From IMG/VR virus record IMGVR_UViG_3300037502_001945, positions 1 to 24,605 of that record: a stretch of DNA of 24,605 nt; one strand, given 5' to 3'. This document shows, piece after piece, positions 2,466-15,995 of this stretch. The stretch is from a virus. Each line of letters starts with the position of its first letter. The stretch's first letter is position 1. The notes under the pieces are model-generated. The model had not been told where the DNA came from and searched no databases. It saw nothing but the letters and a program-made list of their open reading frames with translations. Position numbers and translations under genes: made by a program.

Positions 2466-4166
2466 ATGGATGATACAACTAAATATGCCAAACGAGTTAT
2501 CTCTGGCGAAATATTAGCTTGTAAATCCGTTCAACAGGCTTGCAAACGACACCTAGACGATTTAGAGAATCAAACAGAATATGTGTGGGATTTTAGCTAC
2601 GCATCTAAAGTGATTGAGTTCATGGAGATGTTGCCCGATGTGAAAACTGGCAAAAGTTATCCGTTAGCTGACTTTCAAAAGTTTATCGTGGGTAGTCTGT
2701 ACGGATGGCGTAGAAAAGACAATCTCGAATGGCGAAGATTTACGAGAGCGTTCATTAGTTTAGCTAGGAAAAATGGAAAAACAATTTTAATTGCTGGCAT
2801 TTTATTGTACGAGTTTTTATTCGGTAAGGACCCAGCAATGAGTCGACAATTGTTTTGCACGGCAAACGATCGCAAACAATCGAAGATAGCTTTCGATATG
2901 GCGAGAAAACAATTAGATGCCTTGCGTGCGAAATTTCCAGAAATCAGAAAAGCATCAAAGAAAACTCGTGATGAATTGAAAAATTTAAAAGATGAATCGT
3001 ATATCACGTATCTATCTCGTGAAACTGGTGCAATTGATGGATTCGAGCCTTATGTAGGCGTATTTGACGAGTACGGAGCGAGTAAAACAACTGAAATGAT
3101 GGAATTGATTGAATCTGGTCAAGGTCAGCTCCACAACCCTCTCGTCTTAATTATATCTACGGCAAACTTTAATCTTAATGCGCCAATGTTTACGATTGAA
3201 TATCCTCGTTGTAAAAAAATACTATCTGGCGAATTAAAAGATGAACAATACTTTGGATTTATCGCTGAACAAGATAGTGTGGAAGAAATAGAAGATGAAA
3301 CTATGTGGTTAAAAAGCAACCCAATCCTTTGCGTTGAATCGTTGAAAGAAACGGTTACGGATTATTTGCGAAAACGTTGGAAAACGGCAAAGGAAACCGG
3401 CCAAACAATTAAAGTCCTAGTCAAAAACTTCAATCTCTGGACCCAAGGTAGCGAAGATAGCTACATGGATATCAATGATTGGAATAATGCCATTATCGAA
3501 GAACAAGATATTCGTGGTAGAAAGGCTTGGATTGGTGTCGATGTTGGTCGAACGAGTGATTTATTTAGTATTTCATGGGCGGTCCAAATGGATGGCTATT
3601 TTTATGTTGATTCGTTTAGTTTCGTCGCCACAAAGTATGGACTCGATACGAAAGAAAAACGTGATGGCGTGAATTACCGTTACTTGGAATCGAAGGGTGA
3701 ATGTAAAATCACTGAATTAGAAAGTGGTGTCATTGACTACGATGAAGTTTATGAATGGTTGGATGAATTTATCTACACGCACGAATTAGAAGTCCAATGT
3801 ATTGCGTATGATCCACACCAATATGGTCACATTCTAACATCAGTCGAGAAAAACCATCCTGAATGGCCGCAAGTTGAAATCCGTCAAGGAACACTCACGT
3901 TAAATATGCCAACGAAGCAATTTCGTGATGATGTGAAAGATTTGAAAGTCCGCCACAGTGGAAATGAATTGCTAACCGCTGCAATCAATAATGCAATCAC
4001 TAAAGTTGATAATAACGGTATGAGGATTGATAAGAATAAGAATAGTAATAAGATTGACCCCGTAGATGCCCTGTTAGATGCATACGCGATGTGTTACTTA
4101 GAATTTTCAAGCGGTGGATTTTGGACGGATGATAAAATTCTCAATGATTTAGAATTTGGATTTTAG
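2466..4166 (+). CDS. terL: Terminase large subunit
   Basis: This is the packaging motor ATPase and nuclease, 566 aa from the ATG at 2466 (ribosome site GAAAGGG; a GTG at 2457 is too close to that site). The N-terminal ATPase has a Walker A-like SLARKNGKT (residues 98-106) and a Walker B ending VFDEYG (D201-E202). The C-terminal RNase H-like nuclease shows GVDVGRTSD (near residue 359), IAYDPHQYG, and DPVDALLDAYA near residue 534. Domain order and length match the Terminase_1 family of HK97-like, usually cos-type, siphophages. No frameshift or missing motif is seen. Confidence 0.96.
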   Translation: MDDTTKYAKRVISGEILACKSVQQACKRHLDDLENQTEYVWDFSYASKVIEFMEMLPDVKTGKSYPLADFQKFIVGSLYGWRRKDNLEWRRFTRAFISLARKNGKTILIAGILLYEFLFGKDPAMSRQLFCTANDRKQSKIAFDMARKQLDALRAKFPEIRKASKKTRDELKNLKDESYITYLSRETGAIDGFEPYVGVFDEYGASKTTEMMELIESGQGQLHNPLVLIISTANFNLNAPMFTIEYPRCKKILSGELKDEQYFGFIAEQDSVEEIEDETMWLKSNPILCVESLKETVTDYLRKRWKTAKETGQTIKVLVKNFNLWTQGSEDSYMDINDWNNAIIEEQDIRGRKAWIGVDVGRTSDLFSISWAVQMDGYFYVDSFSFVATKYGLDTKEKRDGVNYRYLESKGECKITELESGVIDYDEVYEWLDEFIYTHELEVQCIAYDPHQYGHILTSVEKNHPEWPQVEIRQGTLTLNMPTKQFRDDVKDLKVRHSGNELLTAAINNAITKVDNNGMRIDKNKNSNKIDPVDALLDAYAMCYLEFSSGGFWTDDKILNDLEFGF

Positions 4167-10778: not shown

Positions 10779-11816
10779 GTGGCATCAAATTTAGGTAATT
10801 TAGCAGCAACAGTCAGTTTGAATATTGACCCTTTTCAACAATCAGCAAGGGTATTAGAAACTCAAACAAGGTCAATTAATCGTGCGTTACAAGCAAGCGA
10901 AACGGCTTGGAAAAACAATTCCAAGAATATCAATGCACAAAAAACGCAATATGATTTAACTGGAAAAGCAATTCAAGTCCACACTGCACAGTTGGAAAAA
11001 CAACGCCAAAAATACAATGGTTTAAAAGCTGAAATTGGCGATGTGAATGACGCGACTGTTCAGCAGAAAACGGATTTATTAGCTGCGGAAGCTGCAATTA
11101 ATAAGACCGCCACAGAACTTGAACGATTAACTGGTAAATACAACGAACTAGGAAAACAAATCGCAATCAACGAATCTAATTGGACGAAGAGCGGAAAAGC
11201 CTTAGAAGAATTTGGTGAAAAAACATCAAAAGTCGGTCAAGGATTTAATGACTTTGGTACGAAGTGGACGTTGGGTGTCACTGCACCTATTGTTGCTGGT
11301 GTAACGGCAGTTACTACCGCAGCGATATCATGGGAAAGTAGCTTTGCTGGTGTGTTGAAAACCAACGATGAAGTCATTGATAAAAACGGAAATGTCGTTT
11401 ACAGCTACAAACAATTAGAAGATGGGTTAAGAAATTTAACTAAAGAATTACCATCGACCCATGCTGAAATTGCAGCAGTAGCAGAAGTGGCAGGACAATT
11501 GGGTATAAAATCACAAGATGTTGTTAGCTTCACTAAAACAATGATTGATTTGGGCGAATCTACAAACTTATCAGCGGAAGAAGCTGCGACATCGATTGCC
11601 AAAATTGCGAATATTACTGGTATGACTTCGGATGAGTATGAACGATTCGGTTCGTCAGTGGTAGCTTTAGGGAATAATTTCGGAACAACGGAATCGCAAA
11701 TTGTAGCATTGTCTAACAGGTTGGCGGCTGCGGGAACGTTGGCAGGATTGTCGGAAACTGAAATCTTAGGTTTAGCGACTGCCATGTCAAGTGTGGGTAT
11801 CGAAGCCGAAGCGGGT
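10779..11816 (+). CDS. Tape measure protein, exon 1 (residues 1-346)
   Basis: The tape measure protein sets tail length and helps DNA entry. Translation starts at GTG 10779 after AGGAAAGGTGG; the ATG at 10777 is in another frame and stops after five codons. Exon 1 encodes an N-terminal coiled coil (about residues 20-135), a hydrophobic helix near residue 170 (LGVTAPIVAGVTAVTTAAI), and the start of the conserved tail-minor-protein core ending MSSVGIEAEAG. The exon stops at U11816, the 5' splice site. Without splicing the frame hits TAG at 11838, giving an inactive fragment of 353 aa. Confidence 0.93.
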
Positions 11817-11889
11817 AAACTATTCTGCCCGGCGGCTTAGAAATAAGTCGTAAAAATTGAGTGAATTCAGGGAAAACCTAAGGTATTTA

Positions 11890-11898
11890 TGGTATAAT
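11890..11898 (+). promoter_or_regulatory. Candidate extended -10 promoter inside the intron
   Basis: TGGTATAAT is an exact TGn-TATAAT extended -10, about 90 bp before the endonuclease start. No convincing -35 is visible, which extended -10 promoters can tolerate. It could express the homing endonuclease independently of the late operon. Part of it lies next to the 5' strand of P5, so it may also be structural. Confidence 0.4.
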
Positions 11899-11987
11899 CA
11901 ATATGTGGCTAGGGTAGCTCCCGAAAAGCAAGTTCCCGCTTGCTTGCCACAACTTATAAAGGGAAATTACTTTGGGAGGTAATTAAT

Positions 11988-12899
11988 ATGGGAGTTACTA
12001 AAACTCATGAACAATTTTTAGAAGAAGTGAAAAACCTTGTCGGAAATGAATATACTGTTCTTAGTAGATATGTGAAAGGTCACAGTAAAATTCGTATGAG
12101 GCACAATAAATGCAGTTACGAATATGAAGTGACGCCAAGTTCTTTTTTATATAGTGCGAGATGTCCTAAATGCGCTGGAAATATCAAAAGAACGGATAAA
12201 TCTTTCAGACGAGAAATTCATGAATTAGTTGGAGATGAATATTTAGTAAAGTCGGAGTATATTTCTAATCATAAAAAAGTCACTATGTTGCATACTAAAT
12301 GCAATTGCAAATATGATGTAACGCCAGCTCATTTTATAACAACTGGTAGAAGATGTCCATTTTGCAACGGTGGCGTAAAAGTAAAAGATTACGATTTTTC
12401 ATTTGATGTGGAAGAGATGACAGACGGAGAATACTCAGTATTAAGTGATTATTCAAATAGCAAAACCCACGTCTTGATGAAACATAATAATTGTGAAAAC
12501 GTTTGGGAGATAAGACCTGATAATTTTAAATCTGGGAAACGTTGTCCGTATTGTAATCAAAGCCACGGAGAATTAGAAATAGCACGTATTTTGAGTGAAA
12601 ACAAAATTGACTTTATCCCACAATTTAAATTTGAGGAATGCAAGAAAAAACGTTCGTTGCCATTCGATTTTGCTATAATAAAAAACGAAAAAGTGAATTG
12701 TGTCATTGAATATAATGGCGAACAGCATTATCGCCCGGTCAAACATTTTGGTGGCGAGTCGGGGTATAAAAGCAGAATCGAAAACGATAGAATAAAAAAG
12801 ACGTTTTGTGATGAAAATAAAATTCCTCTATTAATTATTGATTATAATGAAAACATTGAAGAGAAAATAAATACTATGGCAATCCTGAGCCAAGCCTAG
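11988..12899 (+). CDS. Intron-encoded homing endonuclease, EDxHD type with zinc repeats
   Basis: The 303-aa protein would cut intronless tape measure alleles to spread the intron. ATG 11988 is chosen because GGGAGG lies 8 nt upstream; the open frame extends 16 codons further without a site. Three similar DNA-binding repeats (about residues 8-64, 73-128 and 137-190) each carry an EY-x-V segment, a histidine-cysteine group, and a CPxC pair (C59/C62, C123/C126, C186/C189), resembling DUF723-type zinc modules. The C-terminal nuclease has SHGE (E195), LPFDF (D227), EYNGEQHY (H247) and END (D267). This is the Vsr-like EDxHD layout seen in I-Bth0305I. The last codons and stop overlap intron P4 and P6. 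Confidence 0.88.
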   Translation: MGVTKTHEQFLEEVKNLVGNEYTVLSRYVKGHSKIRMRHNKCSYEYEVTPSSFLYSARCPKCAGNIKRTDKSFRREIHELVGDEYLVKSEYISNHKKVTMLHTKCNCKYDVTPAHFITTGRRCPFCNGGVKVKDYDFSFDVEEMTDGEYSVLSDYSNSKTHVLMKHNNCENVWEIRPDNFKSGKRCPYCNQSHGELEIARILSENKIDFIPQFKFEECKKKRSLPFDFAIIKNEKVNCVIEYNGEQHYRPVKHFGGESGYKSRIENDRIKKTFCDENKIPLLIIDYNENIEEKINTMAILSQA

Positions 12900-13100
12900 A
12901 CGGAAACGCTAGGAAGGTGCAACGACTAGATAAAGTAACCTAAACAAAAGCAATCATTAAGTTGGTTGTTTTTTTTGTATGGAGAAATATCCACGAGCGC
13001 TCAACATCTAAACAAGTAATGTTGTAGACGAAGATATAGTCTGAACTTATGGGAAACCATAAGAAGTAGAGGATAAAGAGCCTTTACGATAACATAATTG

Positions 13101-15995
13101 GGAACTGCTATGACACAAACGTTGACTGCTATTGAAAGTGCTGCGGCATCGGGTGGCGAAAGTTTAGATCAATTCGCCAAAATTGCTGGAATGAGTTCAG
13201 AAAAATTCGCTGAAACTTGGAACAAGAAACCTATTGATGCCATTCAATCATTTATCAAAGGTTTGGGCGAGCTAGATAGTAAAGGTGAATCAGCGACATT
13301 AGTTTTAGATGAAATGGGATTGAGTGGTGTACGCCAATCCAATATGTTGAGCTCTCTAGCTTTGGCATCTGACACATTAACTGGCGCAATAGATATGTCT
13401 ACACAAGCTTGGGGCGAAAATACTGCATTATCAGAAGAAGCTGAAAAACGCTACGCAACTGTTGAATCTCAATTAGGAATGTTAAAAAACGAAGTAGTTG
13501 ATATTGCGATTGAATTTGGCGGACCATTTATACAAGCATTGAGAGATGGATTGCAAGCAGCAAAACCATTCATCGAAGTTATTGCTGATTTAGCTAAGAA
13601 ATTTAGTGAAGCCAATCCAGAAACACAACAAGCGATTGTTAAGTATTTAGGATTAGCGGCTGCAATTGGTCCCGCTGCAAAATTACTCGGTGGTTTCCTA
13701 CAGATTACTGGTGGTGGTATATCGAGTGTCGGTAAAATGGCGCAAGGTGTAGGTAAATTATCTGGTACGTATAAAGCAAGTAAAGGTGCAATCGATGTTG
13801 CGACAGCTGCAACTGGGACATTTGCTAAAGGTGCAGCAACTACTGGACTTGAGGTAGGTTTATTGACAAAAGGTGTCGGATTAGCCACCACATCATTAGG
13901 TGGCTATACTGGAATTTTAGGTGCGATGACTACGCCTGCAGGCATTGCGATTGGAGCGATAGCAGCCGTAACTGGTGCAGTGATCATTGGTAAAAAAGCC
14001 TATGAAGATTATCAATTGTCTGGTGGTAAATGGGGGACGGAAGTCACTAAAGAGCAAGACAAGGTGATTGAGAAATCGCTACAATTGCGTGATGAAGCTA
14101 CCGCACATATTAATGATTATGTGGACGGATTAACCAACTCGGCTGATAAAGCGATTGAAGCCAATCAGAAGATTATCGATTCGATACAAAAAACGATTGA
14201 TAAAGAGCATGAGCGAGCAATTGAGAAGGCTAAAATCATTGAGAATGAGAATATCCAAACAGAACTTGAAAAGCAAGCTGACCGCGATAAACGGATTGCA
14301 GAACAATCATTACGTGCTGCACAAGAGCGAGTGGATGCTATCAATGCTATTTTAAGTAGCGCAAGTGAAAACTCTCGTAACCTATCTGATTACGAACGGA
14401 AATATATTTCTGATAATTATAAACAATTATCAGCAGAGCAATTGGAAGTCGCTGGATTTACGAATGAACAAATTTTAGCAATTGAAACGGCTTATCAAAC
14501 GGATTTATCTAAAATGAGTCGGAAACAATTGCAAGAGCGAGCGATTAGTGTTCACGAAGCATTGGATAACGAGCAACGTGCGTATGAAGAGCAACAACAA
14601 ATCATACGTGACGCAACAGAAGGTAATGCTGATTTACAAAAACGATTGCTAGGTGAATTGGAACAAGACCACAAATCAAATATTGAGGCGATGGTTTTAG
14701 GATATGCAAGACTCGGAATGGAGCAAGGTTTAAGCATCGAAAACATGAAAGCGACTTGGGAACAATACGGATTTACTGTAAATGAAGTCCAAGCGCTTGT
14801 TGATGCATCACTATCCAAAACCACAGACAATGTCGATATGTTTGCTAAAGGTGTGAGTGAAGCAGATTTTATGTGGAATGATATGGCGCTTGACCCTAAA
14901 ACTGGTGAAGTGCGTACCAACATGACTGAAATGTTAGTTGAAATGGCAAGCACCGAAGAAGGTTGGGAACAATTACGTTTTATTGCAAAAAACGCTGATT
15001 TGACCACAAACGCAAAAGAAGAAATTGCGATTGCAATTGGTGAAGCAGATAGGTGGAATCATTTATCAGTGCCCGATAAGAAGTTGTTGGTTGATAATGA
15101 CCTTGCGATGTACGAATTATATGAAACTATCAACGAGTTAGGTTTGTGGAACGAATATAACGCCGACCGAAAAACATTAGGTGTGGATAATGCGGATGCT
15201 GTCTATAAAACGTTGGAATCAAAAGAATCGTTGGAAAATTGGAATAAGTTAAGTCCAACTCTGAAACAGTTGCTTGCAGATGGTCCAGCAAAGGTGAACA
15301 CTGATAAAGCCACAGATGCAATCAAGGAATTTAACAAGCTTCCACCAGAAAAGAAAAAATTACTGACAGATAATCTGGATGCAGTGAATAAGATTAATAA
15401 TGCAAAAGAGCGATTGAATGAATGGAATAGGTATAAACCAGACCAGAAAACAATCACGATTAAAGCTGATACTAGCGGTGCTTCAAAGGCACAGAGTGCA
15501 GTTAATCAAGTTTATGGTAAAACAGTCTATATCGATGTTGTACGAAGAATTCAGGATTATGCAGGTAATTCACCATATGCAGCGCCTTTACGATATGCAG
15601 TCGGAACTCCATACCATTCGGGAGGTTTAGCTGTCCTTGGTGACGGTGGTAAACGTGAACCATATTTAACGCCACAAGGTGAGTTTGGAATCTCTCCATC
15701 CACAGATACACTGTTTAATTTACCACGAGGAACAAAGGTATGGTCATCGATTAGCAAAATGATGGATTCTTTACCACGGTTTGCAAATGGTACTAAATTT
15801 GATGATACCAATATCAGTCGGATGAATTTAGGCAATTTTGGTCAAAGCGAACAAAGAAATCAACAACCAGTCAGAAATGCTAAACCAACGATCAATATCG
15901 AAAATCTAGTTTGGAACAACAAAGAAGATATACGAAGATTTATGGTAGAAATGGGTTGGATACTCAATGTTGACGAAAGGGGGCAATTAGGATGA
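13101..15995 (+). CDS. Tape measure protein, exon 2 (residues 347-1310)
   Basis: After splicing, GGT joins GGA so that the protein reads EAEAGGTAMTQTL, the conserved glycine-rich motif of phage tail minor/tape measure proteins. Exon 2 adds several hydrophobic segments (for example PAGIAIGAIAAVTGAVIIG, coded near 13935-13990). A long charged coiled coil (about 14100-14700) and five repeats of about 31 residues (15054 onward) follow. The end is a globular part with PYHSGGLAVLGDGG. The spliced protein is 1,310 aa. An in-frame TTG at 13098 makes the exon look like a separate gene, but it lacks a ribosome site. The last codon overlaps the next ATG (ATGA). Confidence 0.93.
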   Translation, partial: GTAMTQTLTAIESAAASGGESLDQFAKIAGMSSEKFAETWNKKPIDAIQSFIKGLGELDSKGESATLVLDEMGLSGVRQSNMLSSLALASDTLTGAIDMSTQAWGENTALSEEAEKRYATVESQLGMLKNEVVDIAIEFGGPFIQALRDGLQAAKPFIEVIADLAKKFSEANPETQQAIVKYLGLAAAIGPAAKLLGGFLQITGGGISSVGKMAQGVGKLSGTYKASKGAIDVATAATGTFAKGAATTGLEVGLLTKGVGLATTSLGGYTGILGAMTTPAGIAIGAIAAVTGAVIIGKKAYEDYQLSGGKWGTEVTKEQDKVIEKSLQLRDEATAHINDYVDGLTNSADKAIEANQKIIDSIQKTIDKEHERAIEKAKIIENENIQTELEKQADRDKRIAEQSLRAAQERVDAINAILSSASENSRNLSDYERKYISDNYKQLSAEQLEVAGFTNEQILAIETAYQTDLSKMSRKQLQERAISVHEALDNEQRAYEEQQQIIRDATEGNADLQKRLLGELEQDHKSNIEAMVLGYARLGMEQGLSIENMKATWEQYGFTVNEVQALVDASLSKTTDNVDMFAKGVSEADFMWNDMALDPKTGEVRTNMTEMLVEMASTEEGWEQLRFIAKNADLTTNAKEEIAIAIGEADRWNHLSVPDKKLLVDNDLAMYELYETINELGLWNEYNADRKTLGVDNADAVYKTLESKESLENWNKLSPTLKQLLADGPAKVNTDKATDAIKEFNKLPPEKKKLLTDNLDAVNKINNAKERLNEWNRYKPDQKTITIKADTSGASKAQSAVNQVYGKTVYIDVVRRIQDYAGNSPYAAPLRYAVGTPYHSGGLAVLGDGGKREPYLTPQGEFGISPSTDTLFNLPRGTKVWSSISKMMDSLPRFANGTKFDDTNISRMNLGNFGQSEQRNQQPVRNAKPTINIENLVWNNKEDIRRFMVEMGWILNVDERGQLG
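15054..15515 (+). repeat. Five ~31-residue repeats in the tape measure protein
   Basis: Units start at 15054, 15147, 15240, 15330 and 15423, so the spacing is 93, 93, 90 and 93 bp. Each begins with Trp-Asn or Phe-Asn, followed by patterns such as KLSPTLKQLLAD or KLPPEKKKLLTD and a helix. Nucleotide identity is moderate, so the repeats are old rather than fresh duplications. Regular aromatic spacing is typical of tape measure proteins. Confidence 0.75.

Follow-up and report, generated by a model that had tools for sequence, protein, structure and literature searches.

A group IA intron in the tape measure gene of a siphovirus carries a homing endonuclease gene with a putative promoter and int-alpA leader of its own

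The window considered here, the entire 24,605-base stretch of DNA that was analysed, is a complete IMG/VR virus record with siphovirus head and tail genes, and it raises the question of what separates the two pieces (10779–11840 and 13098–15995) in which its tape measure gene reads when unspliced, and how the gene lying between them would be expressed. The original prediction, made from the sequence by itself, placed a group I intron at 11817–13100. When we compared the window by blastn with the intron-less genes of five homologues (L140, L153, 36L, Javan132 and Javan349; loci L002, L003 and L004), the match broke exactly at 11816 and restarted at 13101 with the subject bases consecutive, so the predicted coordinates are exact; likewise, all 20 of the 20 tape measure loci identified in bacterial genomes were continuous across the insertion site. 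On the phrog_1293 profile exon 1 ends near position 353 and exon 2 picks up at 357, and the two exons join in frame to give 1310 residues with zero internal stops and a restored EAEAG|GTAM motif, which is uninterrupted in 36L, Javan132 and Javan349. The prediction that deleting the insertion rebuilds the EAEAGGTAMT region is thus borne out, and the homologue alignment it had proposed at the GG junction proved to be continuous across 11816|13101. The unspliced message does contain, as predicted, an ORF of 353 residues, and it is fair to infer that phage production would depend on splicing.

The insertion has the features of a group I intron: a P3–P8 core with P7 and its R- and S-like segments, P1 with a U.G pair at the 5' splice site, P10 and a terminal G (Table 1). 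A search with the Rfam group I model Intron_gpI (RF00028), one of the proposed checks, gave a divided result, as it identified a match at 12803–13063 with an E-value of 2e-8, but the score of 40.3 bits fell below the gathering cut-off of 50, which is a curator's threshold and not a defining trait of the ribozyme; in our opinion the low score reflects the position of the core's 5' half, on the far side of the ORF. The core was compared by RNAalifold in four introns, those of the window, the Staphylococcus phages PMBT8 and PT1-1, and Lactobacillus phage JCL1032, with the ORF excluded. Helices P1, P3, P4, the base of P5, P6, P8, P9 and P9.1 were common to all, with 21 of 51 pairs maintained by two-sided changes, while P2, P7, P7.1, P7.2 and P10 are by-eye readings; the pairs of P7 are invariant in the four introns and hence covariation cannot apply to them. 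These results uphold the predicted core helices P3–P9 and the R- and S-like segments, which are conserved in the relatives (P7 by eye), and the sequence and homologue boundaries together support the predicted P1 and P10 pairings with the exons (P10 by eye) and the terminal G. Two hairpins read by eye between P7 and P3 (P7.1 and P7.2) we take to suggest subgroup IA2.

Table 1. Positions of the tape measure exons and of the intron-borne features in the window
Feature	Position	Strand	Basis
Exon 1, tape measure gene	10779–11816	+	phrog_1293 tail length tape measure, 2.5e-86; homologue blastn match ends at 11816
P1: exon CGGGU 11812–11816 / intron GCCCG 11827–11831, splice-site U.G	11812–11831	+	sequence; kept in PMBT8 and PT1-1; GC pairs 4/4
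Group IA-type intron, 1284 nt, terminal G at 13100	11817–13100	+	homologue boundaries, Rfam match, covarying core
P10 strand UUCU, pairs with 3' exon GGAA 13101–13104	11823–11826	+	direct sequence reading
P2 hairpin CGGCUUA-GAAA-UAAGUCG	11833–11850	+	comparison; prophage copy is CUACUUG-GAAA-CAAGUAG
P3 5' strand UUGAGUG, partner CGCUCAA 12998–13004	11857–11863	+	RNAalifold; three compensatory pairs
P4 5' strand UUCAGG, partner CCUGAG 12884–12889	11866–11871	+	RNAalifold
P5 5' strand, partner 12867–12879; loop contains promoter, leader and ORF	11877–11890	+	base by RNAalifold; long extension by eye
Extended -10 box TGGTATAAT, putative promoter in P5 loop	11890–11898	+	sequence; prophage copy TGATATAAT at equivalent place
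int-alpA RNA (RF02996): P1 11904–09/11946–51, P2 11912–14/11920–22, P3 11928–33/11938–43, loop UCCC 11934–37	11902–11963	+	36.5 bits
Segment A, GGGAA, complementary to leader P3 loop (pseudoknot)	11961–11965	+	loop complementarity
Leader P4 hairpin AAUUAC/GUAAUU, loop UUUGGGAG	11965–11984	+	compensated in prophage copy
Homing endonuclease ORF, 303 aa, VSR-like / phrog_559 type, treble-clef domains	11988–12899	+	phrog_559, 9.3e-85
P6/P6a, contains ORF stop codon 12897–12899	12889–12920	+	RNAalifold, sequence
P7 5' strand GACUA (R-like segment), partner UAGUC 13037–13041 (S-like segment)	12924–12928	+	invariant in four introns
P7.1 and P7.2 hairpins; UGGA-GAAAUA-UCCA is 12980–12993	12944–12993	+	by eye
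P8	13005–13030	+	RNAalifold
P9 hairpin CUUAUGG-GAAA-CCAUAAG	13046–13063	+	RNAalifold; five pairs changed on both sides
P9.1 hairpin GUAGAGG/CCUUUAC	13066–13087	+	RNAalifold
Exon 2, tape measure gene	13101–15995	+	phrog_1293, 1.7e-175; blastn match restarts at 13101

The suggestion that a tape measure gene is an uncommon host for such an intron is not supported by comparison with ICP1, JCL1032, PMBT8, PT1-1 and one streptococcal prophage. One study describes the tape measure gene as "another frequently interrupted gene" and establishes by RNA-seq and RT-PCR that in ICP1 three introns are spliced from it (PMC10448857). The ICP1 introns share with that of the window the host gene and an intron-borne endonuclease, and splicing has been shown for ICP1; however, it is a Vibrio phage with HNH-3 endonucleases and three introns, and the likeness is one of description. 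The intron of JCL1032 (NC_019456), a phage whose annotation gives the tape measure gene as a join of two pieces, is of the same class, 74% identical over the 3' half and located in the same conserved motif region, but it has no ORF and is inserted a few residues upstream. Those of PMBT8 and PT1-1 are at the identical site (AEAG|GSAM in PMBT8) and have an endonuclease of the same family in the P5 loop with promoter-like boxes before the ORF, but they lack the int-alpA leader and are unannotated. An int-alpA search of 246 Lactobacillales genomes returned one match, in the streptococcal prophage (G044; loci L168/L172), whose intron is at the identical site, is also 1284 nt long, is ~70% identical, and has the same promoter, int-alpA leader and endonuclease, differing in sequence divergence only; its int-alpA copy scored 33.8 bits, below the gathering cut-off, and its blastn breakpoints against intron-less genes were exact (9620|10905 on subject 5000|5001). 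An element that is rare yet recurs at one site is what would be expected of a homing intron, and the intron itself is ordinary, one more mobile intron in a tape measure gene.

Its ORF occupies the P5 loop, and both the family profile match and the intron-borne position identify the product as a VSR-like homing endonuclease; the original prediction mentioned neither this identity nor the putative promoter and int-alpA leader ahead of the ORF. The protein shares 38–42% identity with endonucleases from introns of Gram-positive phages, some carrying the annotation VSR homing endonuclease (38% with the KSAP7 "group I intron-associated VSR homing endonuclease"), and 61% with the prophage copy. A PDB sequence search with it matched no solved structure, a viral-contig locus search with the endonuclease and with exon 2 gave zero relatives, and no further relative of the endonuclease was found in 335 genomes of the prophage's family. 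By analogy with its family it would probably cut intron-less alleles at the insertion site, homing on them and so spreading the intron. The last codons of the ORF run through P5', P4' and P6, so ribosomes translating it on the pre-mRNA would be likely to compete with folding of the intron. Between the window and prophage copies pS is 0.80, with synonymous sites saturated, and pN is 0.24; this constraint on the endonuclease, with pN much below pS, bears on whether the insertion is instead degenerate and non-splicing, leaving a tape measure gene that is broken or makes two polypeptides. We consider that very improbable: the group I score below the cut-off would fit it, but the in-frame join, the intact core, the exact boundaries and the relatives at the same site, as well as the constraint, all argue against it.

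The sole Rfam match above its cut-off in the window is to int-alpA (RF02996), which scored only just above it (36.5 bits, E-value 2.7e-4, gathering cut-off 35.8) and lies immediately downstream of TGGTATAAT, with 24 nt between it and the endonuclease ATG. The window copy has the conserved CUAG and CGAAAAGC, P1–P3 and the pseudoknot segment of the family; although the family is filed as an sRNA, here, as at most loci examined, it forms the leader of the neighbouring gene, and its P3 loop has a second partner, overlapping the Shine-Dalgarno. This second partner, copy B (11974–77), lies in the loop of the leader P4 hairpin with most of the Shine-Dalgarno GGGAGG (11974–11979). The predicted minimum free energy fold of the window leader favours another small hairpin over P4, in a model without pseudoknots. 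Despite the saturated synonymous sites of the endonuclease, the leader core is identical in the window and the prophage at 34 of 34 bases, from UAGGG through the end of P3, and the stems that differ are compensated (P1 from C-G to A-U, and two outer P4 pairs from A-U to U-A); comparison of the two sequences thus shows that the putative promoter and leader are conserved and that leader pairs covary. At the equivalent position the introns of PMBT8 and PT1-1 show promoter-like boxes and no int-alpA, from which it follows that the intron can do without the leader. We also weighed attenuation of transcription at P1 but dismissed it for the window, where P1 is not followed by a run of U's. For the T4 endonucleases I-TevI, I-TevII and I-TevIII, a promoter within the intron and structured RNA at the ribosome binding site are known (PMC2988022); the window resembles them in both respects, but in T4 the structures are simple hairpins restricted to long transcripts, whereas here an RNA of the int-alpA class would lie wholly inside the short transcript.

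Is int-alpA then a leader elsewhere? Viral contigs were scanned with one pattern, which gave at least 120 matches, and because this was one pattern in one scan the figures describe that sample. Among the matches listed, 16 of 20 scanned loci scored above the Rfam cut-off, and covariation in P1–P3 and the pseudoknot (51 sequences) was 0.443, compared with 0.126 for shuffled and at most 0.151 for slid alignments. In the 64 non-redundant leaders among the matches listed, int-alpA usually ended ~32–45 nt before a start codon; a start codon was found 25–50 nt past the RNA in 48 of 60, vs 27% at random places, and boxes matching TATAAT at 5 of 6 positions at the right distance upstream in 31%, vs 2.6% of control windows (both among the matches listed). 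Genes downstream were diverse (DUF1376, Rha, HNH, GIY-YIG, methyltransferases and tail tube; loci L011–L130, among the matches listed). This placement argues for a leader acting in cis. That int-alpA is instead a trans-acting small RNA, terminated by P1 and a following run of U's and only incidentally near a start codon, seems to us quite unlikely. Rfam does give the type of RF02996 as "Gene; sRNA", and among the matches listed at least four U's follow P1 in 17 of 64 leaders; however, no such run is present in the other 47 of the 64, nor in the window, the start-codon spacing is narrow, and in 51 of 57 leaders listed, vs 23 expected with swapped partners, the P3 loop fits the Shine-Dalgarno zone of the gene that follows it.

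The same 64 leaders, again among the matches listed, were used to compare pairing within each sequence with that of swapped partners. Segment A lies ~10–16 nt after P1, and its complementarity to the P3 loop averaged 5.5 bp vs 3.56 with partners swapped; the corresponding values were 4.94 vs 3.73 for the loop and segment B, which overlaps the Shine-Dalgarno, 4.69 vs 3.67 for the match of A to B, and 4.58 vs 3.54 for the stem of the P4 hairpin with B in its loop, each being above the maximum of 200 partner swaps. A P4 stem of at least 5 bp was present in 35 of the 64 listed leaders vs 7.0, and of the listed leaders with a clear start codon, 37 of 57 had a loop complementary to the A zone as well as the Shine-Dalgarno zone, vs 7.7 expected by swapping (maximum 15.5). 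Two mutually exclusive partners for the P3 loop suggest a translational switch. Alternatively, the leader could be merely a structural 5' end, for instance to shield the mRNA or offer ribosomes a standby site, with an A/B alternation that has no regulatory meaning. Both segments are purine-rich, and a single fold might simply keep the Shine-Dalgarno open in the P4 loop; the match of A to B within a sequence is nevertheless greater than that to swapped partners of equal purine richness, and we regard a purely structural role as rather doubtful. We infer that int-alpA is a portable cis-acting translational leader, which here would control the intron-borne endonuclease. The broader proposal is that int-alpA is for the most part not an sRNA; it would instead be a portable unit of promoter and leader, widespread among phage accessory genes, that toggles their translation through exclusive pairing of its loop with a decoy or the Shine-Dalgarno and has been captured by group I intron endonucleases. 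We hold this to have about even chances of being correct. An int-alpA leader within a group I intron, like the A/B model, is new as far as the literature we searched shows, in which a single paper names int-alpA, solely as an item in a list; part of this may already be known.

Besides the window and the prophage search, no group I core signature was found after an int-alpA leader among the loci examined, and group I matches were present in only 2 of 50 viral records with int-alpA. The exact leader core had one other match in viral contigs, free-standing before a reductase-like gene with no intron. The int-alpA pattern was absent from the endonuclease loci of PMBT8, LfeInf, Semele, 949, KSAP7 and phiL47, and a search of plasmids gave nothing of note. 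Phages D6E (L131, 2500–2600) and Tbat2_3 (L133, 1830–1930) carry free-standing HNH or NUMOD4 nuclease genes that share this promoter and int-alpA leader, the unit in Tbat2_3 lying antisense between tail genes in the manner of a moron.

Our explanation as a whole, to which we give a probability of roughly 0.7, is that a mobile group IA intron, whose boundaries, core structure and same-site relatives are established by the comparisons above, interrupts the tape measure gene within its conserved GIEAEAG|GTAM motif and carries an endonuclease driven by its own promoter and an int-alpA switch leader. On the long tail-gene transcript the intron would fold and self-splice, with guanosine attacking after U11816, and P1 and P10 would guide exon joining to yield the 1310-residue tape measure protein. 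The endonuclease would come mostly from a separate short transcript, beginning at ~11904 from the internal promoter, with int-alpA at its 5' end. Pairing of the P3 loop with segment A would leave B free in the Shine-Dalgarno hairpin loop (on), and pairing with B would block ribosomes (off); as segment A is transcribed first, the on state is the likelier default. Splicing would be spared, too, by translating the endonuclease apart from the pre-mRNA, since P5', P4' and P6 share sequence with the end of the ORF.

The leader matters more than the intron. If the explanation is true, it accounts for how an intron-borne endonuclease could be expressed apart from the long tail transcript with splicing unspoiled; and if int-alpA is a cis switch common to homing endonucleases, Rha regulators, DUF1376-type replication genes, methyltransferases and tail genes in phages whose hosts are very different, a general layer of control over phage accessory genes would have gone unnoticed.

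Our searches also touched on introns in other annotated phage genomes. The tape measure gene of PT1-1 (L007, 3800–5870) is apparently split by at least three introns, with breaks near 3813, 4253 and 5490, none of which is annotated. In PMBT8 (L134, 1364–2592) the same-site intron is unannotated; its broken endonuclease is labelled in part "hypoxanthine oxidase" and in part hypothetical protein, and two genes are recorded for the tape measure gene. In Streptococcus phage Javan576 (L006, 3780–4076) the portal gene is annotated in two pieces, and between them lies sequence that matches the window intron's 3' end at 94%; this is probably an unannotated group I intron. Finally, many S. thermophilus phages (e.g., MH937494, 1304–1486) have ~70 nt of the intron 3' end at 90–92% identity in an unannotated region close to where the record begins.
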